NCBI RefSeq assembly: GCF_008974145.1
Contig: NZ_BJKP01000010.1
Span: 1-46,399, forward strand
Length of the DNA: 46,399 nucleotides
Origin: Microcystis aeruginosa NIES-4325
Lineage (GTDB): Bacteria > Cyanobacteriota > Cyanobacteriia > Cyanobacteriales > Microcystaceae
Direction of reading: 5' to 3'
Within the stretch, counting starts at the first letter, position 1, and each line of letters opens with the position of its first letter. The translations under genes and the position numbers were made by a program. Shown here piece after piece: positions 8,816-30,966 of the stretch. The notes under the pieces are model-generated. The model made no database searches. It saw nothing but the letters and a program-made list of their open reading frames with translations, and had not been told where the DNA came from.

Positions 8816-11800
8816 ATGAATTATCAATATCGTGTCGGGGGTAGTCTTGCCTATAACCATCCTACCTATATCGAGAGAAATGCCGATCGAGAACTGTTAA
8901 TGGCGTTAAAAAATGGTCAATTTTGCTACGTTTTTAACTGTCGTCAGATGGGCAAATCCAGTTTAAGGGTACGAGTGACCCATATTTTACAGCAATCGGG
9001 CATGGATTGCGCGTCCGTAGATATAACCAGTCTTGGTAGTAATGATAATTTATCCCAATGGTATAACGGCGTAATCACCCGTTTGTTTTTAGGATTTAAT
9101 CTGACGGGAAAAATTAATCTTAAATCCTGGTTGCGCGAGCGAGAGGATTTACCCCCCGTGCAGCGTTTGGGACAATTTATCGAGGAAGTTTTATTAGTTT
9201 ATTGTCGGGGAGAGAAAATATATATTTTTATTGACGAGATCGATAAAATTCTCAGTTTACAGTTTTCTCTAGATGACTTTTTTTCCCTGATTCGTTATTG
9301 TTATAACCAAAGAGCGGAAAATGCTCAGTATGAAAGAATTACTTTTGCTTTATTCGGTGTTGCTACCCCAGCAGATTTAATTCGCGAAAAGACCCAAACA
9401 TCTTTTAATATCGGCCAGGCGATCGAATTAACGGGATTTAATCTGGCGGAAATTGCTCCTTTAACGGCGGGATTATCCAGTCAAAGTAATTATCAACCTG
9501 ATTGGTTAGAAAAAATTATCTTTTGGACGGGAGGACAGCCATTTTTAACCCAGAAAATTTGTCAGCTATTGCTGGAAACTAATTTAGATATTGAGACGCT
9601 GATCAAAGAGAGAATTATTAATAATTGGGAATCTCATGATGAACCGGTTCATCTGCGAACCATTGCTGATCGCTTGTTAAGAAATCAAGAGAAAGCGGGT
9701 CGTTTGTTGGGCATCTATCAACAAATTTTAGAAAAGGGATCAATCCTGTGCGATGACAGTCCAGAACAAGGGGAATTAAGGTTATCGGGGTTGGTGGTAA
9801 AAAAGGATAATCAGTTAGTAGTTTATAATCCTATTTATCGAGAAATATTTAATCTCAATTGGCTGGAAAAACAATTAGAGCAATTGCGTCCCTACTCAGA
9901 AGCGATCGCCGCTTGGCAACAGTCTAATTATACCGATGAATCGCGGCTTTTACGCGGAAAAGCTTTAAATAATGCCCTCGATTGGTCTCAGGGAAAAAGC
10001 TTAAGTAATCTTGATTATCAGTTTTTAACTGCTAGTCAAAATCTCGATAAAAGAGAGGCAGAAATTAGCCTAGAAACTCAGAAGCAAGCTAATAAAATTC
10101 TAGCAATCGCTCACAAAAAAGCTACGAAAAGAATTCAAATTGGCTCGGTAATTTTAATTGCTTCTCTACTGGGTTCTTTCTTCGCTTTTATTCAGGTAAA
10201 ACAAGCATGGCATCAAGTGGAAAACGCTCAACTAGGTATTAAATTACAGCGCAAGGGTGATAGTGATTGGCAACAATTTCAATTTGAACAATTAGAATCT
10301 TTAATTGCGGCTATGCAAGCAGTAAATGGTTTAAAAAATATCGTTACTGATGACCAAACTCTAGGTAAATATCCTGCTACCAGTCCAATTATTACCCTGC
10401 AACAAATTTTAGATCGTATTCAAGAAAAAAACCAACTGCAAGGACACCGGGGAACTATTTATAGTGTTAGTATTAGTCCTGATCGTCAAAAAATAGCCAC
10501 TGCTTCTCAAGATGGAACGGTAAAAATTTGGAATCAAAAAGGTGAGAATATTCAAACTTTGACCGGTCATCAGGGAGCAGTTTATAGTGTTAGTTTTAGT
10601 CCCGATGGTCAAAAAATCGCCACCGCTTCTGAAGATAAAACCGCCAAAATTTGGAACTTGCAAGGACAAAATTTAGTCACATATCCTGATCACCAAGAAT
10701 CAGTTTATAGTGTTAGTTTTAGTCCCGATGGTCAAAAAATTGTGACTACTTCCAGGGATAAAACCGCTAGATTGTGGAATTTATCAGGTCAAACTTTACA
10801 GGTATTTAAGGGACATAAAAGATCGATAGATGCAGCTAGTTTTAGTCCCGATGGTCAAAAAATTGCCACTGCTTCCCGGGATGGTACGATTAAAATCTGG
10901 GATTTATCAGGTAAAATTATCCTGAGTGTAGGTCAAGAAAATATTGGGGCTTTTTATAGTGTTAATTTTAGTCCCGACGGTCAAAAAATTGCCGGAGCAT
11001 CGGCCGATAAAACTGCTAAAATCTGGGATTTACAGGGAAATTTAATAGCTACTTTCCGGGGACATCAAGATTTTGTCAACAGTGTTAATTTTAGTCCTGA
11101 TGGCCAGTTTATAATTACCGCATCTAGTGACGGTAGTGCTAAAATTTGGGGAATGCAAGGGGAAGAAATAACTACTCTCAGAGGACATCAAGAATCAGTT
11201 TTTACTGCTGTATTTAGTCAAGATGGAAAACAGGTGGTAACTGGATCGAGTGATGAAACGGCTAAAATTTGGCAACTGAACAATTTAAATCAAGCTAAGG
11301 CCGATAATACCAGCGTTACCATTAATTACCAGGGCAATATTATCGCTATTGCTAATAAAGATGGTCAGATTACTTTACTGGATTCACAAGGTAAAAAAAT
11401 TAGAGAATTTACCACAAAAATGCGTTCAATATATAGTATAGCTTTTCATCCCGATAGTAATCAGATAGCGATTACAGGAAGAAATGGAAAAGTCCAAATC
11501 TGGAGCAAAAAAGGAACAATGCTCCAAGAATTTACCGCTAGTCAAGTACCGATTTATAGTCTTGCTTTTAATGGAGAGGGAACAGCAATAATCACGGGAA
11601 CAAGCGATGGAAAAGTTCAATACTGGCACTTAAGTAATCATCCACCTCAATTAATTAATTCTTGGACAGCCGATGATAGTATTATCTATGATTTGGTGTT
11701 TTCTCCCGATCTTCAAAAAATTGCTACTGCTACTCGGGGAAAGATTAAAATTTGGGATTTGCAGGGTAATCTTTTAAAGGAGATTAAAACCGATTCTTTT

Positions 11801-12139
11801 CCCGTTTATGGAGTTAGTTTTAGTCCCGATGGTGAAAAAATCGCCGCTATTTCAAGGGATGGTACAGCTAGACGCTGGGACATTGACGGAAATTTGCGCT
11901 CCGAGTTTAAAATAGAAGAAGATATCGTCTATGGGATCGCTTTTAGTCCTGATGGTCAAGAAATTGTGATTATTGCTAGGGATGGTCAAAAGCATCGATG
12001 GCCCTTAGAAACGGAATATAATTATTTACAAAAATTGCTCGATCGAGGTTGTCTTTGGTTAGAAGATTATCTCAGGACTCGTCCCGACAAACGAGAAGCA
12101 CTATCCCTGTGTACTGGGAAAATAAAACCATCGAATTAA
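8816..12139 (+). CDS. AAA-like ATPase with C-terminal WD40 repeats
   Basis: This 1107-residue protein has three parts. Residues 1-350 form an AAA-like (AAA_35-type) NTPase domain with a P-loop (CRQMGKSSLR, Gly46-Lys47-Ser48) and a Walker B strand (IYIFIDEID, about 137-145). A membrane helix follows at about 441-460 (GSVILIASLLGSFFAFIQV). From about 535 to 1060 there are around 13 WD40 blades with repeated FSPDGQKIATASxDxTxKIW signatures; those from the eighth onward are weaker. In cyanobacteria this architecture is common and is treated as STAND-like signal switching, with the propeller as sensor; the ligand and output are unknown. The near-identical early blades suggest recent repeat amplification. 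A TAATG context with aagga upstream supports the start. Confidence 0.88.
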   Translation: MNYQYRVGGSLAYNHPTYIERNADRELLMALKNGQFCYVFNCRQMGKSSLRVRVTHILQQSGMDCASVDITSLGSNDNLSQWYNGVITRLFLGFNLTGKINLKSWLREREDLPPVQRLGQFIEEVLLVYCRGEKIYIFIDEIDKILSLQFSLDDFFSLIRYCYNQRAENAQYERITFALFGVATPADLIREKTQTSFNIGQAIELTGFNLAEIAPLTAGLSSQSNYQPDWLEKIIFWTGGQPFLTQKICQLLLETNLDIETLIKERIINNWESHDEPVHLRTIADRLLRNQEKAGRLLGIYQQILEKGSILCDDSPEQGELRLSGLVVKKDNQLVVYNPIYREIFNLNWLEKQLEQLRPYSEAIAAWQQSNYTDESRLLRGKALNNALDWSQGKSLSNLDYQFLTASQNLDKREAEISLETQKQANKILAIAHKKATKRIQIGSVILIASLLGSFFAFIQVKQAWHQVENAQLGIKLQRKGDSDWQQFQFEQLESLIAAMQAVNGLKNIVTDDQTLGKYPATSPIITLQQILDRIQEKNQLQGHRGTIYSVSISPDRQKIATASQDGTVKIWNQKGENIQTLTGHQGAVYSVSFSPDGQKIATASEDKTAKIWNLQGQNLVTYPDHQESVYSVSFSPDGQKIVTTSRDKTARLWNLSGQTLQVFKGHKRSIDAASFSPDGQKIATASRDGTIKIWDLSGKIILSVGQENIGAFYSVNFSPDGQKIAGASADKTAKIWDLQGNLIATFRGHQDFVNSVNFSPDGQFIITASSDGSAKIWGMQGEEITTLRGHQESVFTAVFSQDGKQVVTGSSDETAKIWQLNNLNQAKADNTSVTINYQGNIIAIANKDGQITLLDSQGKKIREFTTKMRSIYSIAFHPDSNQIAITGRNGKVQIWSKKGTMLQEFTASQVPIYSLAFNGEGTAIITGTSDGKVQYWHLSNHPPQLINSWTADDSIIYDLVFSPDLQKIATATRGKIKIWDLQGNLLKEIKTDSFPVYGVSFSPDGEKIAAISRDGTARRWDIDGNLRSEFKIEEDIVYGIAFSPDGQEIVIIARDGQKHRWPLETEYNYLQKLLDRGCLWLEDYLRTRPDKREALSLCTGKIKPSN

Positions 12140-16065: not shown

Positions 16066-17700
16066 ATGACCGATGATGCCATCCCTAGTCTAAATTTAGC
16101 GATCGCTAGTTTAGCCACGAGTAATAATTTCGCCCGTTGGGTGACGAAAGCGCCCCTACCCGGGGGATATGTGCATCATGACTGCGAATGGACCGAGAGT
16201 CTAACCACGGAATGGATGGCATGGCAGGAAATGTTCTGTCTGCAAAAAATGCCGACCTTGCCGATGTTAGAGCAATTAGAAGCAAATTATCGACCTAAAC
16301 TGACTCTTTCGGGAGAAGGCGGCAGTTATGGCGGTCAATTGATGCAAAAACTAGGTATTAGTCTCTGGCAATGGTTATTTCAAGCATCAATTAGTCAAAG
16401 TTTCGCCCAAAGTCAGGGAATCGCCCTCGGCAAAAATCAGCCCCTGCGAATTCGCTTGGAATGTCGCAATCCCTATTTAATTCTGCTGCCCTGGGAAATT
16501 ATGCAGCAAGCGGGTAAACAGGCCATATCTCTGCATCCGAATATACTCTTTAGCCGCACCACCAGCGATGTGGAACCACTGCCAGCGATAAAACCGAGTA
16601 ATAGTCTCAATATTCTCTTAGTTATTGGTGAAAAACAGATTAAAACCGCCGCTAGTTCCCTCAACCTCAGCGCCATTAATACGGGTCTTGAATCCGAGGC
16701 CGCCAATCTCATCCGGGCCATCTCCCCTGAAGATAGTAGTTCCCCCTCTCAGAATTTGGGAGTGAAAGTCACAGTCGATACCTTAATTCGACCGGGATCC
16801 GAAGAACTGACCAAGGCCTTGGATACGGGTAAATATCAAGCTTTTTTTTACGCCGGTCACGGAATGGCTGCCCCCAATGGCGGTTCCCTATTTCTACGGC
16901 CGGAGGAACAGCTAAACGGTACGGAGTTAGCCCAAGCTTTGGTGAGAAATCAAGTTATTTTAACGGTTTTTAATGCCTGTTGGGGTGCTTATCCCGCTAC
17001 ATTCGGTCAGGAGATGATTCCCCGCAGCAGTCTGGCGGAAGTGTTGATTCACCACGGCGTTCCCGCAGTTTTGGCCATGCGAGATGCGATCGCAGATCGC
17101 GAGGCCTTGAGTTTTATCGAAGTTTTTACCCGCACCCTCTTCGGGTTCAAAGACAAAGAAGCGCAGATGTCCAAGTTGCCCCACGGTCTGAGAGTCCCTA
17201 TTGATCAGGCCGTTCGCATCGCCAGGCAGCAGCTATTAACCCTCTACAAGTACAATCAGCCCGCTTGGACTTTGCCGATTCTCTATATGCACCCAGAATT
17301 CGACGGGCAATTGCTGCAAACCTTTGATGAGACTCAATTACCGACGGTTATGCCCAATATCTCCAGAACCATGCCGGCCGCTTTCTTATACTATCTCGAT
17401 CGTCCCGAAAGAAAATGGTCAATCCGTGGTGGTGGCATGAATATAGGACGGGACAGGGAAAATGATCTACAGATTGCTGAAAAATGGGTTAGTAAAAACC
17501 ATTGTCGGATCATTTGCCGTAAAAATCCCGATTATCCAGACTATCAATACTTTCTCGAAGATTTCTCCCGTTTTGGTACTTTTATCTACCAAGATGGCCA
17601 CTGGAAACAGGTTCATAACCAAGAAGTTCCCCTAGAGTCGGGTTTACAGATTCGCTTCGGCAGTTACGAAGGCCAAATCCTCGCATTTGTGATGGAATAA
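16066..17700 (+). CDS. CHAT-domain protease-like protein with C-terminal FHA domain
   Basis: This 544-residue protein has a CHAT (caspase-like) domain at about 150-420 with the catalytic His in FYAGHG (His265) and Cys in NACWGAYP (Cys305). Both are present, so it may be an active cysteine protease. An FHA domain occupies about 451-540: GR at 461-462 and SxxH at 476-479, the phosphothreonine-binding pattern, with FGT further on. The first 140 residues have no recognised domain. FHA would recruit it to a phosphorylated partner, or respond to Ser/Thr kinase activity. CHAT proteins often act in stress or death pathways, but the target is unknown. It lies 70 bases after holA on the same strand; a functional link is not implied. 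Confidence 0.88.
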   Translation: MTDDAIPSLNLAIASLATSNNFARWVTKAPLPGGYVHHDCEWTESLTTEWMAWQEMFCLQKMPTLPMLEQLEANYRPKLTLSGEGGSYGGQLMQKLGISLWQWLFQASISQSFAQSQGIALGKNQPLRIRLECRNPYLILLPWEIMQQAGKQAISLHPNILFSRTTSDVEPLPAIKPSNSLNILLVIGEKQIKTAASSLNLSAINTGLESEAANLIRAISPEDSSSPSQNLGVKVTVDTLIRPGSEELTKALDTGKYQAFFYAGHGMAAPNGGSLFLRPEEQLNGTELAQALVRNQVILTVFNACWGAYPATFGQEMIPRSSLAEVLIHHGVPAVLAMRDAIADREALSFIEVFTRTLFGFKDKEAQMSKLPHGLRVPIDQAVRIARQQLLTLYKYNQPAWTLPILYMHPEFDGQLLQTFDETQLPTVMPNISRTMPAAFLYYLDRPERKWSIRGGGMNIGRDRENDLQIAEKWVSKNHCRIICRKNPDYPDYQYFLEDFSRFGTFIYQDGHWKQVHNQEVPLESGLQIRFGSYEGQILAFVME

Positions 17701-19160: not shown

Positions 19161-19320
19161 TTGACATACTCCCACCGTCAAGCTACGCTGTGACGGGGGA
19201 TTCTTTCCACATCGCTGTTAGAAATTCCTTGTTCAACGAGACAACTTAGATTCTCAATGTCTCCACTGAAAACCCAGAGGTCGGACTCTCCCAAGGCGTT
19301 TGGGTCGGTTTCTGTTTGCC
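19161..19320 (-). ncRNA. predicted omega-RNA scaffold of the TnpB element
   Basis: By analogy with known TnpB systems, the guide RNA is made from the 3' end of tnpB through the right end. A hairpin with loop CAGCGTAGCT on the minus strand (loop 19181-19190) sits just before the element end. The guide would start directly after GTATGTCAA and read TGTAATCTCATGGCGA. The upstream RNA limit is a guess. Confidence 0.4.
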
Positions 19321-20464
19321 CAACAGTACCGTTGAGATGATTTCCCAAATATTGCAACCCTTTTTTAAGAATATTTATTGCTGCATTATGATCCCTATCT
19401 AAGACTGTTTTACAATTGGGACATTGATGAGTTCTAGTGCTTAATGTTTTTTGAACTCTCGTCCCACAAACTGAACAATCTTGGCTAGTAAAATGGGGAG
19501 GAACAGCAACACAAACAATCCGATAAATCTTGGCAAAATAATTCAACCATTCAGTGAATTGATACCAAGAAGCATCAGAAATCGACTTGGCAAGCTTACG
19601 GTTTTTGACTAAGTTTCTTACCTTTAAAGCTTCATAAACTACCAGATCATTAGACTGGACCAACGCCAAAGCATCTTTAATTGCTTTGTCTTTACGTTGT
19701 CTTGACACTTTAAGATGAAGCCTAGCCACTTTTATCCGTTGCTTGTGATAGTTGTTAGACTGTTTCTTTCCTTTACGAAATCGTTTTGATAATCGTCGTT
19801 GTGCTTTTTTAAGTCGTTTTTCTGACTTTCTTAAATAACGTGGATTCTCTACTGTATTGCCTTGAGCGTCGGTATAAAATTCCTTTAACCCTAGGTCAAT
19901 TCCTGTTATTTGTCCCGTTGGTTTATGGTATTCTTGCCGTTCTACGTCAATCAAAAACTGGCAATAATAACCATCGGCACGTCTAACAACTCTTACCCGT
20001 TTAATCTGTTGCTCTGAATAATAAACTAAGGTTTTTTGATTACACCATAAATCAAATTCTCCTGCTTTAAAGCCATCGGTAAATTTAATTTTACGTCTAT
20101 CATCAGATAGTTTGTAGCCTGTTAGTTTATACTCAACCGAACGGCTATGCTTTTTAAACCGAGGAAAACCCTTTTTCCCCGGTATCTTAGCATGACAATT
20201 CTGGTAAAACCTATTAATTGATTGCCAGGCTCTATCAGCAGCCGATTGACGAGCTTGAGAGTTTAATTTATTAACCCATGGTGTCTCTTTATTGTTAGCT
20301 AGTACCGCACAAAGCTTTTGAAGATCATTACGGGTTGTCCCCTTATTGTCCATCCAATAACGAACACAAGAGTTACGCACAAACTGAGATGTCCTAATTG
20401 CTTCATCAAGCCGGTGATATTGTTCTGGTGTCCCGTTTTTTAGCTTGGCTTCTACGACTAGCAT
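19178..20464 (-). CDS. tnpB: TnpB RNA-guided endonuclease (IS605 OrfB)
   Basis: This 428-residue TnpB, a relative of Cas12, uses an omega-RNA to direct DNA cleavage. The RuvC-like catalytic residues are all present: Asp in ITGIDLGLKEF, Glu in LVVYEALKVRNL and Asp in DRDHNAAINIL. The zinc-finger Cys pairs are CSVCG and CPNC. The N-terminal helical and wedge part (about 1-180) includes NSCVRYWMD and KKGFPRFK. The roughly 45-residue tail after the last catalytic Asp overlaps the predicted guide-RNA region. A TATAAT at about 20495-20500 on the minus strand may be its -10 box. The gene is intact, so nuclease activity is plausible. Confidence 0.92.
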   Translation of the reverse strand: MLVVEAKLKNGTPEQYHRLDEAIRTSQFVRNSCVRYWMDNKGTTRNDLQKLCAVLANNKETPWVNKLNSQARQSAADRAWQSINRFYQNCHAKIPGKKGFPRFKKHSRSVEYKLTGYKLSDDRRKIKFTDGFKAGEFDLWCNQKTLVYYSEQQIKRVRVVRRADGYYCQFLIDVERQEYHKPTGQITGIDLGLKEFYTDAQGNTVENPRYLRKSEKRLKKAQRRLSKRFRKGKKQSNNYHKQRIKVARLHLKVSRQRKDKAIKDALALVQSNDLVVYEALKVRNLVKNRKLAKSISDASWYQFTEWLNYFAKIYRIVCVAVPPHFTSQDCSVCGTRVQKTLSTRTHQCPNCKTVLDRDHNAAINILKKGLQYLGNHLNGTVGQTETDPNALGESDLWVFSGDIENLSCLVEQGISNSDVERIPRHSVA

Positions 20465-20502
20465 TGATTAATCCTCGACCCTTGGATCGTTTAATTATAA
20501 CA

Positions 20503-20636
20503 CAGTTTACCTACAAATAGTAGAATTAAAATCGTGCTTCGCAGTCAATATCCTGGTCGGATTTCATCCCCCGCAAAGGTTGATGTCTTGTCGAAAAATT
20601 TAGCGGGGGCATTCATCCGACATTTTAGGTAAACTG
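20503..20636. repeat. nested inverted repeats upstream of tnpB
   Basis: CAGTTTACCT (20503-20512) and AGGTAAACTG (20627-20636) are perfect inverted copies. Inside them, GTCGGAT (20556-20562) pairs with ATCCGAC (20615-20621), and CCCCCGC (20568-20574) pairs with GCGGGGG (20603-20609), with a 5x5 internal loop between the two stems. This is plausibly the left-end structure recognised by a Y1 transposase. It also serves as the leader of tnpB. Confidence 0.6.
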
Positions 20637-21775: not shown

Positions 21776-23140
21776 ATGGGTATCGCTTCAGTTAACCCTG
21801 CCACTGGAGAAATTCTCAAGACTTTTACCCCTCTAACCTCGGAGGAATTGGCGGCGAAATTAGCCCTAGCTGAGGCAACTTTTCAGCAGTATCGCCACAC
21901 CGCCATCAGTCAACGGGGACAGTGGTTACGGCAAGCGGCGGACATTTTGGAACGGGATCAGGTGGCATTGGCTAAAACCATGACTTTAGAAATGGGGAAA
22001 CCGATCAAGTCAGCGATCGCAGAAGTCCTCAAATGTGCCTTGGTTTGTCGTTTCTATGCCGATAATGCCGCCGGTTATCTGGAAGATGTGCCGATTGCCA
22101 CCGATGCTAGTCGCAGTTTTGTCCGTTATCAACCCTTAGGGGTGATTTTAGCGGTTATGCCCTGGAATTTCCCTTTATGGCAAGTATTTCGCTTTGCTGC
22201 CCCCGCTTTGATGGCGGGAAATGTCGGCCTACTCAAACACGCTTCTAATGTCCCCCAATCAGCTTTAGCGGTGGAAAGAATTTTATTAGAAGCTGGGTTT
22301 CCCGAAGGCACTTTTCAAACTCTTTTGATCGGGGCCGATCGCGTTAGTGATTTAATTAACGATGAACGGGTAAAAGCCGCCACTTTAACCGGTAGTGAAC
22401 CGGCGGGGATCAGTTTAGCAGCTGCCGCAGGAAAACAGATCAAAAAGGTGGTTTTGGAGTTGGGAGGTAGTGATCCTTTTATCGTTTTAGATACTGCCGA
22501 TATCGAGGCGGCAGCGACTACGGCAGTGACGGCAAGATTGTTAAATAATGGTCAGACTTGTATCGCCGCTAAACGGTTTATTGTTATGGAAACTGTCGCC
22601 GATCAATTTGAACAGTTATTAGTGGCCAAATTCCAAGCTTTAAAAGTTGGTGATCCCCTCGATGAAACTGTTGATATCGGTCCTTTGGCCACGGTATCGA
22701 TCGTCTCCGAAATTGCCGCCCAAGTGGAAAAAACCGTCGCTATGGGTGGTAGAGTCCTTGTGGGGGGTCAACGTTTAGAGGGAAAAGGTAACTTCTATCT
22801 ACCAACGATTTTAACCGATATTCCCGCCGGTTCTCCGGGGGAAAAAGAGGAATTTTTCGGACCGGTGGCTTTACTATTTCGAGTCAAAAATATCGAGGAA
22901 GCGATCGCTTTAGCTAATGATAGTCCCTTTGGTTTGGGTTCTAGTGCTTGGACGAATAACCCCGCAGAAATTGAGCGTTTAATTACCGAAATTGAGGCCG
23001 GTTGTGTGTTTATTAACGGTATGGTTAAATCCGATCCTCGTTTACCCTTTGGGGGGATTAAACGTTCCGGTTTTGGTCGCGAATTAAGTGTGGAAGGTAT
23101 TCGCGAATTTGTCAACGTTAAAACTATTTGGATTAAGTAA
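21776..23140 (+). CDS. gabD: succinate-semialdehyde dehydrogenase (NAD(P)+)
   Basis: This 454-residue aldehyde dehydrogenase most resembles the SSADH group. Visible are SVNPATGEI at the start, MPWNFPLWQVFR, the glycine motif TLTGSEPAG, the general base Glu in LELGGSDPF and the nucleophile Cys in NNGQTCIAAKRF. In cyanobacteria SSADH completes the 2-oxoglutarate decarboxylase bypass or the GABA shunt of the TCA cycle. Substrate preference cannot be proved from sequence, and other semialdehydes are possible. It is probably co-transcribed with pdxA; AGGAG lies about 12 bases before the ATG. Cagttat heptamers follow the stop codon. Confidence 0.85.
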   Translation: MGIASVNPATGEILKTFTPLTSEELAAKLALAEATFQQYRHTAISQRGQWLRQAADILERDQVALAKTMTLEMGKPIKSAIAEVLKCALVCRFYADNAAGYLEDVPIATDASRSFVRYQPLGVILAVMPWNFPLWQVFRFAAPALMAGNVGLLKHASNVPQSALAVERILLEAGFPEGTFQTLLIGADRVSDLINDERVKAATLTGSEPAGISLAAAAGKQIKKVVLELGGSDPFIVLDTADIEAAATTAVTARLLNNGQTCIAAKRFIVMETVADQFEQLLVAKFQALKVGDPLDETVDIGPLATVSIVSEIAAQVEKTVAMGGRVLVGGQRLEGKGNFYLPTILTDIPAGSPGEKEEFFGPVALLFRVKNIEEAIALANDSPFGLGSSAWTNNPAEIERLITEIEAGCVFINGMVKSDPRLPFGGIKRSGFGRELSVEGIREFVNVKTIWIK

Positions 23141-23206: not shown

Positions 23207-26200
23207 ATGCCGCGTATTATTGATAATATTGAGTCCCATTTATTGCCAATTTTACGCGAAAGTTTATTAGTGGCCCAACGCGCTGATTTTTGTGTGGGTT
23301 ATTTTAATTTGCGCGGTTGGCAGTCCATTGATACCTATATTGATCACTTTCTCGGTGGTGATTTGTCCTGTTGTCGTCTGCTGATTGGTATGCAGCAAGC
23401 ACCCCAGGAATTACTACAGCAATCCCTGTCTTTATTGAAGCGATCAAATAATATAGATAAGGCTACTTCTGCTCGTTTAAAAAAACAAATTGTTCAGGAT
23501 TTTTGCCAACAATTAACTTGGGGAAATCCTAGCAATCGAGATCAGGCAGCTTTGCAACGTTTGACCAAACAAATTCAATCGGGTAAGCTAGTAATTCGCT
23601 TATTTTTGGGCTATAATCTCCATGCTAAATTATACCTTATTCATCGACAGGATGTCAATAACCCAACGGTGGGATTTTTGGGTAGTAGTAATCTAACTTT
23701 TGCGGGATTACAACAGCAGGGAGAATTAAATATTGATGTCCTTGACCACGATGCTTGTGCCAAATTACAAAAGTGGTTTAATGATCGTTGGTTTGATGCT
23801 TGGTGTTGGGATATATCCTCGGATATTGTCAATGTGATTAACGAAAGTTGGGCCCGGGAAAGTCTTATTCCTCCCTATCATATCTATTTAAAAATAGCTT
23901 ACCATCTTTCCTTTGAAGCGAGAGCCGGTTTAGCGGAATACAAAATTCCCCGACAGTTTGATCAAGACTTACTAGATTTTCAGAAATCGGCCATTAAAAT
24001 TGCCGCTCGTTATGTGCAAAGACGCGGTGGGGTACTAATTGGCGACGTGGTGGGGTTAGGAAAAACGCGCATCGCTTCCATTCTAGCATATATTTTGCAG
24101 GAAGACTACGATTTAGAAATCTTAATTATTTGTCCGAAAAATCTCCTAACTATGTGGGAGGATTACAGCTATAAATACAAATTAAGAGCGAAAATTATCC
24201 CCTTAAGTCAGGTTATGCAGGAATTACCCAATCTGCGGCGCTATCGGGTAGTAATTATCGATGAAAGTCATAACCTACGCAATCGGGAGGGTAAACGTTA
24301 TCGGGTGATACAGGAGTACATTAACACCAATGAAAGTCGCTGTATTCTCTTGACTGCGACTCCCTACAATAAAAACTATCTTGACCTGTCCAATCAACTG
24401 CGTTTATTCATTCAAGAGGATACTAATCTCGGAATTCGTCCCGAAAGACTACTAGAATCTCTGGGAGGAGAAATCGAATTTAATCGCAGATACCAATCTC
24501 CGGTTAGGTCCCTAGCAGCCTTTGAAAAAAGTGACTCTCCCGACGACTGGAGAGACTTAATGCGTCTCTATATGATTAGACGGACTCGCGGTTTTATCGA
24601 AAATAATTATGCTACAGAAGACGAACAGGGTCGTCGGTATCTAAAATTTGCTGATGGGTCGAGGGTTTATCTTCCCCAACGACAACTAAAGACAATCAAG
24701 TTTGACCTGCAAGACTCGGTTTATGCGCGTTTATATTCGGAAGCAGTGGTGATAACCCTCAACGGATTGAAGTTACCCCGTTACGGATTGGGAAATTATC
24801 TAATTAAAGGATGCAAAGGGACAGGAGAGGAAGAAACCATCTTAAAAAGTCTATCCCGTGCGGGTAAAAGATTAATGGGTTTTTGTCGGACGAATTTATT
24901 TAAACGTTTGGAGAGTGGAGGGTATGCTTTCCTGCAATCCCTTGACCGTCATATTCTCCGTAACTATATTTTCCTTCATGCCATGGCCAAGAATTTACCC
25001 CTTCCCATCGGGAGTCAGGATCCAGCTTTGTTAGACACTCGTTATCTGGATGAGGATTTAGTCACTCAGGGAGAGGATGAAAGTATAGAAACCGAGGAGA
25101 CTGGGGGGATAACCGGGTTAGAAAAAGAGTATCAAAAAAGAGCCGAACAAGTGTATCAAAAGTATAGCGGTGATTATCGCAAGCGCTTTCAGTGGATTAA
25201 CACCGAGGTGTTTAAACCCGCATTGAAAAAAGACCTAAAATCCGATGCCTTGGCTTTAATAGCATTGTTGCAAACCTGTGGGACCTGGCAGCCGGAGACC
25301 GACGAAAAGCTAGAGAAGTTATGGCAGCTGTTAGAGGAGAATCATCCCAGAGAAAAGGTGTTAATTTTTAGCCAATTTGCCGATACAGTCAGTTATTTAG
25401 TCACTCAGTTGCAAAATCGGGGAGTGGATAAGATTGCGGGAGTGACGGGAAACTCTGCTAATCCTGCGGAAATGGTCCATCATTTTAGTCCCCGCAGTAA
25501 TTCTCAGCAAGTGGGGGAAGAAATACGAGTCTTGGTTGCGACGGATATCCTTAGTGAAGGGTTAAATTTACAGGATTGTGCCATTATCGTTAATTATGAC
25601 CTACCCTGGGCAATTATTCGCCTGATTCAACGGGCCGGAAGGGTAGATAGAATCGGTCAAAAAGCAAGTCAGATTCTCTGTTATTCCTTTTTACCTGCGG
25701 AGGGAGTGGAGAGAATTATTAAACTGCGGACGAGACTATCTCAAAGACTGCGAGAGAATGCTGAGGTGGTGGGGACTGATGAGATATTTTTTGAGGAGGA
25801 GATGGATAACCAGACTTTATTGGATCTGTATCATGAAAAATCTGAGGTTATCGATGAAGAGGAGGATCAAGAAGTGGATTTAACCTCGGAAGCGTATCAA
25901 ATTTGGAAAAATGCGATCGAAGTTGACCCTAGTTTAAAACATACCATAGAGACTCTGCCGCCGGTGGTTTATTCTACCCGTTGCCATAGTGGGACAGCAA
26001 CCCATCCGGAGGGAGTCATGGTTTATCTAAAAACTGCCGGGGGGAATGATGCTTTAGCATGGATTGATAAGCAGGGAAATAGTGTGACTCAATCCCAATT
26101 AACTATTTTACGGTCCGCTGCCTGTCATCCCCAAACCCCGGCCATTCCCCCCCATCCCCAACACCATCAATTAGTACAAAAAGGTACAGAATTAATTGCG

Positions 26201-26536
26201 GAGGAGGAAAACAACTCCGGATCTAAATTGGGACGATTGACGGGAGCAAAATTTAAGACCTATGAGCGCTTAAAAAGGTATTCTCAAGATAGTAAGGATG
26301 ATCTGTTTGCTCATGAGGATTTATGCAAGGCTCTCGACCAATTGTATCATTATCCCCTTAGACAGTCGGCTCTCGATCGCTTAAATCGTTGTTTAAGAAC
26401 CGGCATCAGTGACCAACAATTGGCAGATTTACTGGTATCTTTATATCAAGATGACCGTCTCTGTATTGTTCACCCACAAGAATCCACCCAAGAACCTCAG
26501 ATTATTTGTTCCTTGGGTCTATTTCAACCTTCTTAA
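23207..26536 (+). CDS. HKD (PLD-like) nuclease fused to SNF2 helicase
   Basis: This 1109-residue protein opens with a phospholipase D-like domain (about 1-200) with HxK in NLHAKLYLIH (His139, Lys141) and GSSNLT at 159-164; the usual HKD Asp is His146. A SNF2-type helicase follows: Walker A GDVVGLGKT (279-287), the DESH box in VVIIDESHNL (352-355), LLTATPYNK, and the second RecA domain with EKVLIFSQF, ATDILSEGLNLQ (from 778) and QRAGRVDRIGQ. The last 200 residues are of unknown fold. The family is known as Snf2-like proteins with an N-terminal HKD nuclease. With the adjacent adenine methyltransferase gene it looks like the restriction and translocation half of a defence module. Cleavage activity is inferred. 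Confidence 0.9.
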   Translation: MPRIIDNIESHLLPILRESLLVAQRADFCVGYFNLRGWQSIDTYIDHFLGGDLSCCRLLIGMQQAPQELLQQSLSLLKRSNNIDKATSARLKKQIVQDFCQQLTWGNPSNRDQAALQRLTKQIQSGKLVIRLFLGYNLHAKLYLIHRQDVNNPTVGFLGSSNLTFAGLQQQGELNIDVLDHDACAKLQKWFNDRWFDAWCWDISSDIVNVINESWARESLIPPYHIYLKIAYHLSFEARAGLAEYKIPRQFDQDLLDFQKSAIKIAARYVQRRGGVLIGDVVGLGKTRIASILAYILQEDYDLEILIICPKNLLTMWEDYSYKYKLRAKIIPLSQVMQELPNLRRYRVVIIDESHNLRNREGKRYRVIQEYINTNESRCILLTATPYNKNYLDLSNQLRLFIQEDTNLGIRPERLLESLGGEIEFNRRYQSPVRSLAAFEKSDSPDDWRDLMRLYMIRRTRGFIENNYATEDEQGRRYLKFADGSRVYLPQRQLKTIKFDLQDSVYARLYSEAVVITLNGLKLPRYGLGNYLIKGCKGTGEEETILKSLSRAGKRLMGFCRTNLFKRLESGGYAFLQSLDRHILRNYIFLHAMAKNLPLPIGSQDPALLDTRYLDEDLVTQGEDESIETEETGGITGLEKEYQKRAEQVYQKYSGDYRKRFQWINTEVFKPALKKDLKSDALALIALLQTCGTWQPETDEKLEKLWQLLEENHPREKVLIFSQFADTVSYLVTQLQNRGVDKIAGVTGNSANPAEMVHHFSPRSNSQQVGEEIRVLVATDILSEGLNLQDCAIIVNYDLPWAIIRLIQRAGRVDRIGQKASQILCYSFLPAEGVERIIKLRTRLSQRLRENAEVVGTDEIFFEEEMDNQTLLDLYHEKSEVIDEEEDQEVDLTSEAYQIWKNAIEVDPSLKHTIETLPPVVYSTRCHSGTATHPEGVMVYLKTAGGNDALAWIDKQGNSVTQSQLTILRSAACHPQTPAIPPHPQHHQLVQKGTELIAEEENNSGSKLGRLTGAKFKTYERLKRYSQDSKDDLFAHEDLCKALDQLYHYPLRQSALDRLNRCLRTGISDQQLADLLVSLYQDDRLCIVHPQESTQEPQIICSLGLFQPS

Positions 26537-26617
26537 GTCCCCCTTATCAAGGGGGATTTAGGGGGATCAAACCAATTCAAGTCCCCCTTATCAAGGGGGA
26601 TTTAGGGGGATCAAACC
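26535..26617. repeat. two 39-bp palindromic repeats between helicase and methyltransferase
   Basis: An identical 39-base block starting aagtcccccttatcaagggg occurs at 26535-26573 and 26579-26617, a period of 44. Each block contains TCCCCCTTATCAAGGGGGA, a near-perfect hairpin, followed by a second G-run. Similar sequences are widespread between genes in cyanobacteria. The first copy overlaps the helicase stop codon, and transcripts crossing here would form two strong stems. Confidence 0.9.
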
Positions 26618-26694
26618 TTTTGCTATATTAAATGTATCTCCAATCTCAGCGAAGCGAATTGGATTGGTTCATAATTTATCGATATTTATCCATT

Positions 26695-29600
26695 ATGCCC
26701 CTCAACTTCTCCCGGACTCGTGACTTATTATCTAACTTCCAATTTGGGGAACTGTTTATCGAGGAATTGGGATGGTCTCATCCTCGCACAAAAAAAACTG
26801 TTAGTATCACCGTTGACAATCAAGAATATCCCTGTCAACGAATTGCGGAGGTGTCCGGAGTAGCAGTATTAGAGGTGACAACTACCGATATACCCGATGC
26901 GAAACTTCGTCGGGACATTCACCAGCAAGTTATCGAAAGAATTGCCGAAAATCTGCTAATTTTCGTCGATGGGGGACGGACACGCAGTTTATGGTACTGG
27001 GTAAAAAGAGAGGGAAGTAAAAGTTATATCCGTGACCATCTTTATATAAAAGGACAACCGGGAGATTTATTTCTCGGTAAACTAGCGGAATTAGTCCTCG
27101 ATATCACCGATTTTGAAGATGGGGAACCCTCCGTGGTGGAGGTGGCCCATCGCTTACAAAAAGGTTTCGATATCGAAAAGATTACCAAGAAATTTTATCA
27201 GGAATTTCAGCGAGAGCATCTACAGTTCCTCCCCTTTATCCAAGGAATCGATCGAGAAAGCGATCGAAAATGGTACACTTCGGTTATTCTCAATCGTTTA
27301 ATGTTCGTCTATTTCCTGCAGCGCAAGGGATTTATCGATAACGACTTCAACTATCTGCAAAACCAATTACAAGCAAGTCAACGACGCGGGAAAAATTTAT
27401 TTTATCGTCAGTTTCTGCAAACCCTCTTTTTCCAAGCATTCGCTAAACCAGAATCCCAACGAGATGAGACAGTAACTGCATTGGTGGGAAAAGTCAAATA
27501 TCTTAACGGAGGATTATTTCTCCAACATCCCCTCGAAAATATTTATCAAAACATTTGTATTGATGACCAAGCATTTGAGAATATCCTCGATTTATTCTCC
27601 CGTTACTCCTGGAATCTTGACGACACTCCGGGGGGAAGCGATGACGAAATTAACCCCGATGTCTTGGGATATATCTTTGAAAAGTATATCAACCAAAAAG
27701 CTTTCGGTGCTTACTATACCCGTCCGGAGATTACCGAATATCTCTGTGATAGGACGATTAATAAATGGATTGTCGAGAGAAGTAATCAACATTATCCCCG
27801 CAAACAATTTGCCAGTATTTCTGAACTACTAATTAATCTCGATTCTCCCCTCTGTCAGCTTCTGATTGAAGATATTCTTCCCCAGCTTTCTATTTTAGAC
27901 CCTGCCTGTGGTTCCGGTGCTTTTTTAGTGGCTGCGATGAAGACATTAATCGGAATTTATAGCGCGGTGATTGGGACAATTGAACTACGGGGAGACAGTA
28001 AATTAAAACAGTGGTTAACAGAGGTAAGAAAATCCCATCCCTCCCTCGGATATTACATCAAAAAAAGAATTATTTCCGATAACCTCTACGGTGTCGATAT
28101 CATGGAGGAAGCAACGGAAATCGCAAAACTGCGTTTATTTCTCGCTTTAGTTGCTGCCGCACAATCGGTGACAGAATTGGAACCCTTACCGAATATTGAT
28201 TTTAATATCATGTCGGGAAATTCCCTCATCGGGTTAATTCGCGTGGACGAAAAAAGTTTTAATCTCATGGGAGAGGAAAACATTCTGCAAACCCTCACCG
28301 CGCAAAATTATCAGGCAATTCTCGCGGAAAAAAATCGCAGTATTGAATTATACAAAGAACACGCTTTTCGGTTGGGAGAAGTAGAGGGAACCCCCCAAGA
28401 AAACCGTCTCCAGATGTTACGCAATCACATCGAGGATGTCAACCGCGAATCGGTGCAGAAATTAAACCAAATTCTCTTAGATGAGTTTAGCGGTAAGTTG
28501 TCAATTAAGTACGAATCCGCACAATTAACGGGAAAAGCAAAGAAACGTTTATTAACTCTTTCTGATATGCAATCCCTGAAACCCTTCCACTGGGGTTATC
28601 ACTTCGATAAACTGATTACAGAAAAAGGTGGTTTTGATGTGATTATCACCAATCCCCCTTGGGAAGTCTTTAAACCCCAAGCGAAAGAATTTTTTTCTCA
28701 GCATAGCGACTTGGTGACTAAAAATAAAATGGACATCAAGACGTTTGAAAAGGAACAGAAAAAACTATTAACTAATCCCGAAATCGCTCAAGCATGGTTA
28801 GAATATCAAAGTCAATACCCCCACGTTAGTCTCTATTTTCGTTCCTCGGAACAATATAAAAATCAAATCTCTATTGTCAATGGTAAAAAGCAAGGGACGG
28901 ATATTAATCTCTATAAGCTTTTTGTTGAACAATGTTTTAATCTCCTCCATCCCCGGGGAGAATGTGGAATAGTTATTCCCAGTGGAATTTATACCGATTT
29001 AGGAACCAAGCAACTGCGGGAAATGTTATTTTCTCAGACAAACCTGACAGGATTATTTTGTTTTGAAAATCGTAAAACAATTTTTGAAGGTGTAGATAGT
29101 CGCTTTAAGTTTGTCATTCTAACTTTTGAGAAAAATAAACAAACTCTTTCCTTTCCTGTGGAATTTATGCGTCACGATGTTGAGGAATTACAACGTTTTC
29201 CCCATAAAGATAGTTTAGTAATTAGCGTCGATTTAATCCGCAAACTATCCCCCGATTCCCTCTCGGTAATGGAATTTAAACAAGATATAGATATTCATAT
29301 CGCTGAAAAAATGTCTCGTTTTCCCCTGCTAGGAGAAACCCTTCCCGATACATGGAATCTCAAGTTAACATCAGAATTTCACATGACTAATGATAGTTAT
29401 TTATTTAAAACTGAACCCGCAGAAGGAAGACTACCCCTCTACGAAGGAAAAATGATTCATCAATTCACCCATCGGTATGCTTTACCGAAATACTGGTTAG
29501 ATGAAAAGGAAGCAAGACAAGCTTTATTAAAACGCGGTGAAGTCGATAAAGGTCAAATCTTGGACTATCAAACCTATCGTTTAGGATTTCGGTCAGTTTC

Positions 29601-30120
29601 ATCAAGTACAAACGAACGCTCTTTAATTTCTAGTCTGATACCTAAATCAGTTTTTTGCGGAAATTCGTTATCTATTAGTGAGTACGAACAAAATAATTTT
29701 CAAGAAAATGAGGCATTCAAATTTTTCATTGTTACCATTTTAAACAGCTTTTTAATTGATTGGATGCTTAGACAAAAAGTTAGTCAAAACCTAAATTTTT
29801 TCTACATATATCAACTACCTATCCCCCGATTAAAAGAGGGAGATAAATACTTTCAGGAGATAGTAGAAAATGCGGCAAAATTGATTTGTACCACAGAAGA
29901 ATTTGAGCAATTAGCGAAAGAAGTGGGGATAGGTTCCCATAAAAATGGAGTAACAGAAGAAGCAGAAAGAATGGCAATTAGAGCGAAATTAGATGCAATA
30001 GTCGCCCACTTGTATGAATTAACCCTAACAGAATTTCAACATATATTAAGTACCTTTCCCCTCGTCCCCGAAAGCGTCAAAATTGCCACCCTCAAAGCTT
30101 ACCAAAACCTGTTACAGTAA
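26695..30120 (+). CDS. Eco57I-type N6-adenine DNA methyltransferase
   Basis: This protein has 1141 residues from the ATG at 26695; an ATG at 26632 is also in frame, but the family start (short head, then LFIEELGW) favours the later one. The SAM-binding motif I is LDPACGSGAF (402-408) and the catalytic motif IV is NPPW (653-656), both intact. The C-terminal third has the target-recognition-like blocks PLYEGKMIHQFTHR and NLNFFYIYQLPIPR seen in type IIG, type ISP and DISARM/BREX-type methyltransferases. I see no nuclease motif in the N-terminus. Cutting, if any, would come from the HKD-helicase encoded just upstream. Its likely task is methylating a specific adenine to mark self DNA. Confidence 0.9.
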   Translation: MPLNFSRTRDLLSNFQFGELFIEELGWSHPRTKKTVSITVDNQEYPCQRIAEVSGVAVLEVTTTDIPDAKLRRDIHQQVIERIAENLLIFVDGGRTRSLWYWVKREGSKSYIRDHLYIKGQPGDLFLGKLAELVLDITDFEDGEPSVVEVAHRLQKGFDIEKITKKFYQEFQREHLQFLPFIQGIDRESDRKWYTSVILNRLMFVYFLQRKGFIDNDFNYLQNQLQASQRRGKNLFYRQFLQTLFFQAFAKPESQRDETVTALVGKVKYLNGGLFLQHPLENIYQNICIDDQAFENILDLFSRYSWNLDDTPGGSDDEINPDVLGYIFEKYINQKAFGAYYTRPEITEYLCDRTINKWIVERSNQHYPRKQFASISELLINLDSPLCQLLIEDILPQLSILDPACGSGAFLVAAMKTLIGIYSAVIGTIELRGDSKLKQWLTEVRKSHPSLGYYIKKRIISDNLYGVDIMEEATEIAKLRLFLALVAAAQSVTELEPLPNIDFNIMSGNSLIGLIRVDEKSFNLMGEENILQTLTAQNYQAILAEKNRSIELYKEHAFRLGEVEGTPQENRLQMLRNHIEDVNRESVQKLNQILLDEFSGKLSIKYESAQLTGKAKKRLLTLSDMQSLKPFHWGYHFDKLITEKGGFDVIITNPPWEVFKPQAKEFFSQHSDLVTKNKMDIKTFEKEQKKLLTNPEIAQAWLEYQSQYPHVSLYFRSSEQYKNQISIVNGKKQGTDINLYKLFVEQCFNLLHPRGECGIVIPSGIYTDLGTKQLREMLFSQTNLTGLFCFENRKTIFEGVDSRFKFVILTFEKNKQTLSFPVEFMRHDVEELQRFPHKDSLVISVDLIRKLSPDSLSVMEFKQDIDIHIAEKMSRFPLLGETLPDTWNLKLTSEFHMTNDSYLFKTEPAEGRLPLYEGKMIHQFTHRYALPKYWLDEKEARQALLKRGEVDKGQILDYQTYRLGFRSVSSSTNERSLISSLIPKSVFCGNSLSISEYEQNNFQENEAFKFFIVTILNSFLIDWMLRQKVSQNLNFFYIYQLPIPRLKEGDKYFQEIVENAAKLICTTEEFEQLAKEVGIGSHKNGVTEEAERMAIRAKLDAIVAHLYELTLTEFQHILSTFPLVPESVKIATLKAYQNLLQ

Positions 30121-30369: not shown

Positions 30370-30966
30370 ATGTTAATTGGTAAATATTTAACCCTAGAGG
30401 AATTATCTACCTGTTCCCAAACCTATCAAAAGTATGCAGCCCAAATCGATCCCTATCCAAAAAATCCTGAAACCATAACCGCTTGGCAGAATCTTACTCA
30501 CTTTATTATCGATCCAATTATTGACAATTTTGGTCGAGAAAAATTCCAATTAACCTACGGATTTTGTTCCAATGATCTCAGAAAACTTCTCCAAAAAAAA
30601 GACCCAATCACCGGCTTAAAAAACGGGAGAATCGATCCCAGTCGTGATCAACATTGCGCCCACGAAATTAATCAAAAAGGTCAATATTATTGTCAGCGAT
30701 TGGGGGCAGCCTGTGATTTTCGGATTATCGACTTAACTAGCGATCGCCTGATAGATTGGATTTTAAACCAAAAATTACCCTTTGACTCTCTCTATTTTTA
30801 CGGAATTAATCGCCCGATTCATATCAGCTACGGACCGCAACATAAACGAGATTTATGGACTTTTACCCCTAAAGGAACACCGACCAAAAAAGGTTTAGAA
30901 TCATGGTTAGAAGCGGCAAAATCGATCGATTCTGAAACAAAAAAATCCCCCGAAATAGGGGGATAA
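30370..30966 (+). CDS. M15 peptidase-like protein
   Basis: This 198-residue protein begins MLIGKYLTLEELSTCSQTY, then has FQLTYGFCSNDLRKLL, SRDQHCAHE, LGAACDFRI and PIHISYGPQHKRDLW. The order of a His, an Asp (in CDF) and a His (in HIS) resembles the zinc ligands of M15 (DD-carboxypeptidase/Hedgehog-type) peptidases. Here about 13 extra residues separate the first His from the GxAxDF block. No signal peptide is seen, so a cell-wall role is doubtful. It lies 249 bases after the methyltransferase on the same strand, with a hairpin repeat between, so membership in that module is possible but unproven. Its last codons contain the recA terminator on the other strand. Confidence 0.6.
   Translation: MLIGKYLTLEELSTCSQTYQKYAAQIDPYPKNPETITAWQNLTHFIIDPIIDNFGREKFQLTYGFCSNDLRKLLQKKDPITGLKNGRIDPSRDQHCAHEINQKGQYYCQRLGAACDFRIIDLTSDRLIDWILNQKLPFDSLYFYGINRPIHISYGPQHKRDLWTFTPKGTPTKKGLESWLEAAKSIDSETKKSPEIGG
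30939..30964 (-). terminator. recA terminator inside the neighbouring gene's end
   Basis: On the minus strand ATCCCCC (30964-30958) pairs with GGGGGAT (30951-30945) around a six-base loop, followed by T residues down to 30939. It lies 26 bases past the recA stop codon. It overlaps the last nine codons of the convergent gene. Confidence 0.75.

Follow-up and report, generated by a model that had tools for sequence, protein, structure and literature searches.

A PLD-SNF2 motor-nuclease gene and its partner methyltransferase gene in Microcystis aeruginosa as a probable split translocating restriction-modification system

The DNA considered here, hereafter the window, comprises 46,399 nucleotides of Microcystis aeruginosa NIES-4325 (assembly GCF_008974145.1, contig NZ_BJKP01000010.1, positions 1 to 46,399 of the forward strand). 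At its center lie two neighboring genes on the forward strand. One (23207..26536) encodes a protein of 1109 amino acids (aa) in which a nuclease domain of the phospholipase D (PLD) or HKD type is joined to a SNF2 motor, with a further domain at the C-terminus; the other (26632..30120) encodes a large predicted adenine methyltransferase. An earlier note on this DNA had proposed that the two form a split translocating restriction-modification (RM) system, and we examined that proposal using protein family models, comparison with related genomes, and the literature on known enzymes. Below, L, G, and C numbers denote loci, genomes, and contigs; the window is on contig C10.

The first protein, which we call the motor-nuclease, opens with the PLD domain at about aa 1-215 (23207..23851, the boundary being an estimate), where Pfam places PLDc_2 at aa 107-195 (E = 4e-9) and the PLD domain of RE_NgoFVII at aa 117-193 (E = 2e-5). 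The motor follows at about aa 240-890 (23924..25876), with matches to SNF2-rel_dom (E = 3.6e-12) and Helicase_C (E = 2.6e-19) and with the helicase motifs GDVVGLGKT, DESH, and QRAGRVDRIGQ; all four Pfam matches exceed the curated cut-offs. The nuclease motif HxK (H139-A-K141, 23621..23629) is kept in 80 of the 80 best relatives described below and GSSN (aa 159-162, 23681..23692) in 79, and the motor is conserved to a similar degree (Walker A in 78, DESH in 73, motif VI in 79), even though one of the proteins counted, L060, is truncated by a contig end. The description of this protein as an HKD-SNF2 fusion, with a cutting domain that is PLD-like instead of PD-(D/E)XK, is borne out by these matches and motifs. 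In an AlphaFold model (mean pLDDT, the predicted local distance difference test, 77.3) the fold-search (VIA) list was occupied by matches to the SNF2 core, and PDB sequences compared with a profile of the motor gave SNF2 and DEAD relatives with RapA at the top, none of the best 60 of 144 matches lying over the PLD part. No SRA domain was matched in this protein by Pfam at E 0.1.

The second open reading frame (ORF) is 1162 aa long, but its homologues begin at Met22, and translation therefore probably starts at 26695, giving a protein of 1141 aa; this is the only change to the positions proposed earlier for the two reading frames. Pfam matches it to Eco57I (E = 1.2e-22), MmeI_Mtase, and N6_Mtase. 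Among the 57 relatives whose ORFs exceed 1000 aa, the pattern of the S-adenosylmethionine-binding motif DPACGSG (aa 423-429, 27898..27918) is found in 54 and that of the catalytic motif NPPW (aa 674-677, 28651..28662), as NPP[YW], in all. These features identify an N6-adenine methyltransferase whose recognition region, at the C-terminus, is variable. The part ahead of the catalytic core, aa 22-360 (26695..27711), is modeled as an alpha/beta domain followed by a helical spacer (mean pLDDT 82.8), and we propose it as a coupling domain. It holds no conserved nuclease triad, and no conserved D-(D/E)xK was found across the 64 aligned sequences of alignment A3 (the N-terminal region of the window protein together with 63 of the 65 that were eligible; a further alignment, A4, joined the window's entry to 65 of 79 eligible ones). 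A profile of this domain matched nothing among PDB sequences up to E 10, fold searches with it gave no assignable fold, and the profile of the whole methyltransferase gave one weak match (E = 0.034). The assignment of an Eco57I-type methyltransferase with both motifs, a recognition-like C-terminus, and no detectable nuclease motif of its own thus appears sound.

If the two genes form one system, they should travel together, as the earlier note had pointed out. When one genome per species was scanned, the relatives of the motor-nuclease numbered at least 566, and the best 80 (55-98% identity) were kept; these span Cyanobacteria, Nitrospira-type bacteria, Acidobacteria, Desulfobacterales, Chloroflexi, Verrucomicrobia, Proteobacteria, Bacillota, and others. 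A methyltransferase of the family lies downstream on the same strand in 76 of the 80 loci, and in 36 of the 76 the two genes overlap or stand no more than 37 bp apart. Two of the four unpaired loci (L060 and L086) end at a contig edge, and the others have 1.5 kb (L061) and 3.3 kb (L123) remaining without a methyltransferase, L123 being the sole possible intact motor-nuclease without one among the 80. Pairing was also assessed from the methyltransferase side, at 33 places in 98 genomes (a set that contains the genome of the window) picked by hand, among the matches listed, as covering the N-terminal region at family-level similarity, with the C17 type described below and C-terminal pieces left out. 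A motor-nuclease or, in some cases, a remnant of one (e.g., G006:C214, G088) lies upstream on the same strand, 81-1963 bp away, at 24 of these 33 places. The nine without an upstream partner include contig-edge cases (G051:C40, G031:C67), a broken gene (G084, L047), a gene in which the beginning of the N-domain is missing (G071:C181, L148), partial genes on contigs where no motor-nuclease was among the matches listed (G056:C31, G056:C101, G040:C115, G055:C3), and an intact lone methyltransferase (G096:C442, L054). A motor-nuclease without a methyltransferase on its contig was seen at nine places, five at contig ends (G007, G051, G056, G094, G031) and four represented by fragments. The adjacency is thus conserved, and it recurs within the genome of the window, which has three modules in which a motor-nuclease stands beside a methyltransferase: on C10, on C12 (motor-nuclease 55% identical to that of the window), and on C17 (31%), the methyltransferase preceding the motor-nuclease in modules of the C17 type. 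Further, relatives occur in 24 of 72,556 plasmid records at E 1e-50 (copies of plasmid pSYSX being counted several times), and a phage collection gave no match at E 1e-30. In the sister genome G009, the matching DNA extends through the upstream dehydrogenase gene, which ends at 23139, and the pair is missing. This absence and the plasmid copies are compatible with mobile defense, although they do not prove it.

A second line of evidence comes from the way in which the two proteins vary. Set against 10 Microcystis-group orthologues (of which L012 and L058 have identical profiles and could represent a single strain), the methyltransferase is near-identical outside four blocks that vary in different combinations: V1 at about aa 670-755 (28639..28896), V2 at about aa 790-860 (28999..29211), V3 at about aa 925-985 (29404..29586), which varies chiefly in one relative (L014), and the hypervariable V4 at about aa 985-1045 (29584..29766), within the recognition region, where the DNA alignment with L041 has a gap at 29591-29818. 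V4 holds the peak: over the 60 residues that begin at aa 987, 50.7% of sites differ, compared with a mean of 8.5% and with 21.4% for the highest of 2000 shuffles; identity is also lower (63-77%) at aa ~37-110 in L013-L015, which are among the more distant sequences. The motor-nuclease, compared with eight sequences, is flat except for a mild C-terminal rise (peak 12.4%, reached by 6 of 2000 shuffles). Four sequences of the C17 module give the same contrast, with a peak of 63% in the methyltransferase (0 of 2000 shuffles) and a flat motor-nuclease (568 of 2000); in the C17-type locus L141, methyltransferase identity is 20-77% from about aa 390 onward, and L139 aligned over the C-terminal part only. 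The C12 methyltransferase, with one ortholog, has no hotspot (518 of 2000). These statistics are descriptive because shuffling of sites ignores autocorrelation.

At larger distances, the comparison used 35 of the 57 loci in which both genes are long, all with methyltransferases of the C12 class (working name MT2); 15 loci of the window's class (working name MT) and seven unclassified loci were excluded. The correlation of p-distances with those of the motor-nuclease was 0.80 for the methyltransferase N-terminus, 0.77 for its core, and -0.015 for its recognition region (null maximum 0.216), a value that saturation or misalignment may have lowered. Close pairs give the same picture: in L077/L071 the motor-nuclease differs by 9% and the recognition region by 69%, and in L133/L130, the mildest of the eight closest pairs, by 15% and 42%. 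The recognition region is swapped as cassettes between Microcystis-group genomes, and the motor-nuclease and the body of the methyltransferase co-vary.

A relative of the pair can be connected to a known methylation mark. In Synechocystis sp. PCC 6803, plasmid pSYSX carries the motor-nuclease gene SGL_RS01585, two small genes, and the methyltransferase gene SGL_RS01600, with HxK, GSSN, NPPY, and DPTCG intact in the pair, as well as a second RM system. The methyltransferases M.Ssp6803IV and M.Ssp6803V lie on pSYSX (PMC6604393), M.Ssp6803V is the Type I gene slr6095, and M.Ssp6803IV methylates GA(m6A)GGC, at 1446 of 1451 sites in the wild type (PMC7296061). Among pSYSX ORFs of at least 150 aa, the pattern [DNS]PP[YFW] occurs only in SGL_RS01600 and in the M gene of the plasmid's Type I system. 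There are thus two candidate methyltransferases on the plasmid, of which the other is M.Ssp6803V, and SGL_RS01600 is by elimination M.Ssp6803IV; the search for a methylation motif suggested earlier is in this way answered for a member of the family. The mark lies on one strand because the complement, GCCTTC, has no adenine. SGL_RS01600 is presumably the gene named slr6050, and M.Ssp6803IV was reportedly found by Hagemann in 2018 to be essential, in that it could not be deleted.

The same pair offers an example of a natural exchange. In strain PCC 7338 (compared via L052 of G029; a plasmid of the strain is among the plasmid records matched), the motor-nuclease is 96.9% identical to that of PCC 6803 and the VapC encoded beside it 91%, and the methyltransferase is of the other class. 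Identity between the two methyltransferases is 85-90% over aa 1-80, 68% over aa 81-120, and 40-62% up to aa 360, after which they are mostly unlike. The start of the methyltransferase has thus stayed with the motor-nuclease, the remainder being of another class, and because this part travels with the motor-nuclease, we propose the start of the N-domain as the docking site. Near the pair on pSYSX (L157, 11620-14241) are genes annotated as multiubiquitin, E2/UBC, ThiF, and DUF6527, possibly a second defense operon. More generally, small variable genes stand between the two genes in a number of cyanobacterial loci (L039, L046, L049, L050, L052, L055-L057, L107), which gives the gap the look of a landing site; they encode a YhcG-type nuclease in L107 (by Pfam), VapC on pSYSX, and elsewhere, judged by eye, Uma2-like and nucleotidyltransferase-like proteins.

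Several known systems resemble the pair in part. SauUSI, a Type IV enzyme, is a single PLD-SF2 chain that dimerizes via its PLD domains, translocates, and cuts, the active site being formed by the HxK motifs of two chains (PMC7913695); a worked-out fusion of this kind, of which the earlier note was unaware, thus exists. The motor-nuclease of the window shares with SauUSI the order of an N-terminal HxK PLD nuclease and then an SF2 helicase-like motor, but SauUSI has its own SRA domain and acts on methylated targets (PMC7913695), whereas the motor-nuclease of the window has no SRA match and a separate methyltransferase chain as its partner. The Type ISP enzymes LlaGI and LlaBIII likewise have a motor, a gamma-methyltransferase, and a C-terminal recognition domain, and they recognize continuous asymmetric sites (PMC3874165), as does the family member assigned GA(m6A)GGC. 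They differ in that everything is in one polypeptide with an Mrr-like PD-(D/E/Q)xK nuclease, whereas the window and 76 of the 80 relatives have two genes, and the nuclease is of the PLD type. In Type I RM systems (HsdR, HsdM, HsdS), the nuclease-motor is also a separate subunit, and the recognition part is exchanged while R stays constant, but M and S are separate and HsdR is a PD-(D/E)xK nuclease; here M and S are in one chain, the nuclease is of the PLD type, and the motif assigned to one member of the family is continuous, not bipartite. In CglI and NgoAVII, which are ATP-dependent RM systems with a PLD nuclease and an SF2 ATPase, the nuclease is driven by a separate ATPase, with PLD and B3 recognition domains in one subunit and the methyltransferase in another chain (PMC4267653; PMC5737866), whereas the PLD domain of the window is fused to SNF2. 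No description of the two-gene system was found in the literature searched, most subscription papers lying outside that scope.

We consider it probable, at roughly 0.82, that the pair is a split ATP-dependent RM system of a Type ISP/Type I-like translocating kind, in which a SauUSI-like PLD motor-nuclease serves as R and is combined with a methyltransferase-specificity (M.S) chain. The split translocating design proposed in the earlier note is supported by the pairing, the co-variation, and the exchange of the recognition region; cleavage, translocation, and defense against phages we infer. The C-terminal region of the M.S chain would recognize a short, probably asymmetric site, at which adenine would be methylated on one strand, and its N-domain would dock the R chain. 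At an unmodified site the complex would fire the SNF2 motor, and the docked R chain would move along the DNA. Cutting would presumably need head-to-head sites, the arrangement between which Type ISP enzymes translocate and cut, in that two converging complexes, or one stalled against another, would position the PLD domains to cut.

Three other explanations deserve to be weighed against this one. The methyltransferase could be a self-sufficient Type IIG cutter and the PLD-SNF2 protein an accessory or an independent defense gene, a view embodied in PADLOC, whose profiles PDLC01075 (C3a139, 'HKD+Snf2') and PDLC03628 ('REase_MTase_IIG') match both proteins or their relatives as separate entries, so that relatives of the MT2 class are labeled as complete Type IIG enzymes. 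Complete cutting enzymes they do not appear to be, given the 64 sequences without a conserved D-(D/E)xK, and a free-standing enzyme accords poorly with the near-constant pairing and with the co-variation with the motor-nuclease; we regard this explanation as unlikely. A phage block of the bacteriophage exclusion (BREX) or DISARM sort, acting without site-triggered cutting and represented by the two genes as a remnant or a core, draws on real resemblances, since the motor resembles the models of DrmD, BrxHI/HII, and HmaA, and since the BREX-related type 2 system has an HKD domain ahead of a Swi2/Snf2 helicase together with an N6-methyltransferase (PMC12839542). That system differs in its core of a DUF499 ATPase and DUF3780 (PMC12839542). 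In a genome-wide profile search the sole match to DUF499 was on contig C31 and none was on C10, and DUF3780 had no match in the genome, yet gave none in control genomes either. No BREX or DISARM component lies among the ten neighboring ORFs of the window, and no Drm model was matched there, in agreement with the earlier observation that drmA, drmB, and drmC of DISARM class 1 are absent. Further, the recognition region is exchanged as it is in site-specific systems, and we consider a phage block of this sort very unlikely.

The remaining alternative, that a regulatory or orphan methyltransferase stands beside a repair or recombination helicase-nuclease and nothing is restricted, can point to the intact lone methyltransferase of L054 and to a paper in which Synechocystis 6803 is said to lack an active RM system (PMC6560206). 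Against it, a motor-nuclease without a methyltransferase is rarer, the nine such places being contig edges and fragments with L123 a possible exception, as would be expected if the motor-nuclease were harmful without its methyltransferase. The pair is also absent from the same site in the sister genome and is found on plasmids, and we think this alternative highly improbable.

If the split translocating RM system is real, some of the large methyltransferases that surveys treat as self-contained Type IIG enzymes would be no more than one half of an ATP-driven system of two proteins. In a cyanobacterium-centered survey, large methyltransferases without a nuclease motif were called Type IIG by alignment to known enzymes, with the statement that size alone can discriminate (PMC8262939). 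The mapped methylation mark of Synechocystis 6803 would gain a cutting partner, and the mechanism would be directly testable there. The pair would also represent another build of translocating restriction enzyme, with a SauUSI-type motor-nuclease and Type ISP-type modification and recognition.

A broader model, on which we are evenly divided, is that of a plug-in system: one conserved PLD motor-nuclease would accept different classes of methyltransferase via an N-terminal docking domain (approximately the first 100 residues) inherited with the nuclease, the catalytic and recognition parts being swapped. The GA(m6A)GGC methyltransferase would then be the antidote to the adjacent nuclease, and a DprA-like protein would be a regular third component in many non-cyanobacterial members. 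Recurring neighbors in the 80 loci were sought by all-against-all BLAST, and in 34 of them a DprA/Smf-like gene (PF02481) accompanies the pair (e.g., L064, L067, L071, L077, L121, L135), mostly downstream of the methyltransferase but upstream in L073. Among MT2-class loci in which 2 kb or more remain downstream, 30 of 37 show the linkage, compared with 3 of 16 of the window's class. Four of the six DprA-like proteins scanned pass the PF02481 cut-off, and no ORF of the window matches a DprA-like gene. In L069, the DprA-like ORF also carries DUF3293.

In the window itself, an ORF downstream of the pair (30370-30966, 198 aa) was considered as a third component and rejected, as among the same-genus loci listed it follows the pair in L042 only and not in L041, L043, L044, or L045; comparison with Pfam, PADLOC, NCBIfam, and PDB sequences also gave no match for it. 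The stretch with this ORF and recA is retained in two other genomes of the same genus (L042, L155). PADLOC reported among the ten neighboring ORFs only a TnpB-like transposase (as Cas12f) and, weakly, recA. The window contains neither a tRNA nor an Rfam family that reaches the gathering score, and between 23000 and 30500 promoter-like sites are about as frequent as expected by chance (19, with 17.3 expected). The TnpB-like transposase (OrfB_IS605, Cas12f1-like TNB) lies at 19161-20628, a stretch that is missing from L154, L041, L043, and L044 and present in L042. Farther upstream, the window encodes a protein with CHAT and FHA domains (16066-17700) and one with an AAA-like domain followed by many WD40 repeats (8816-12139).

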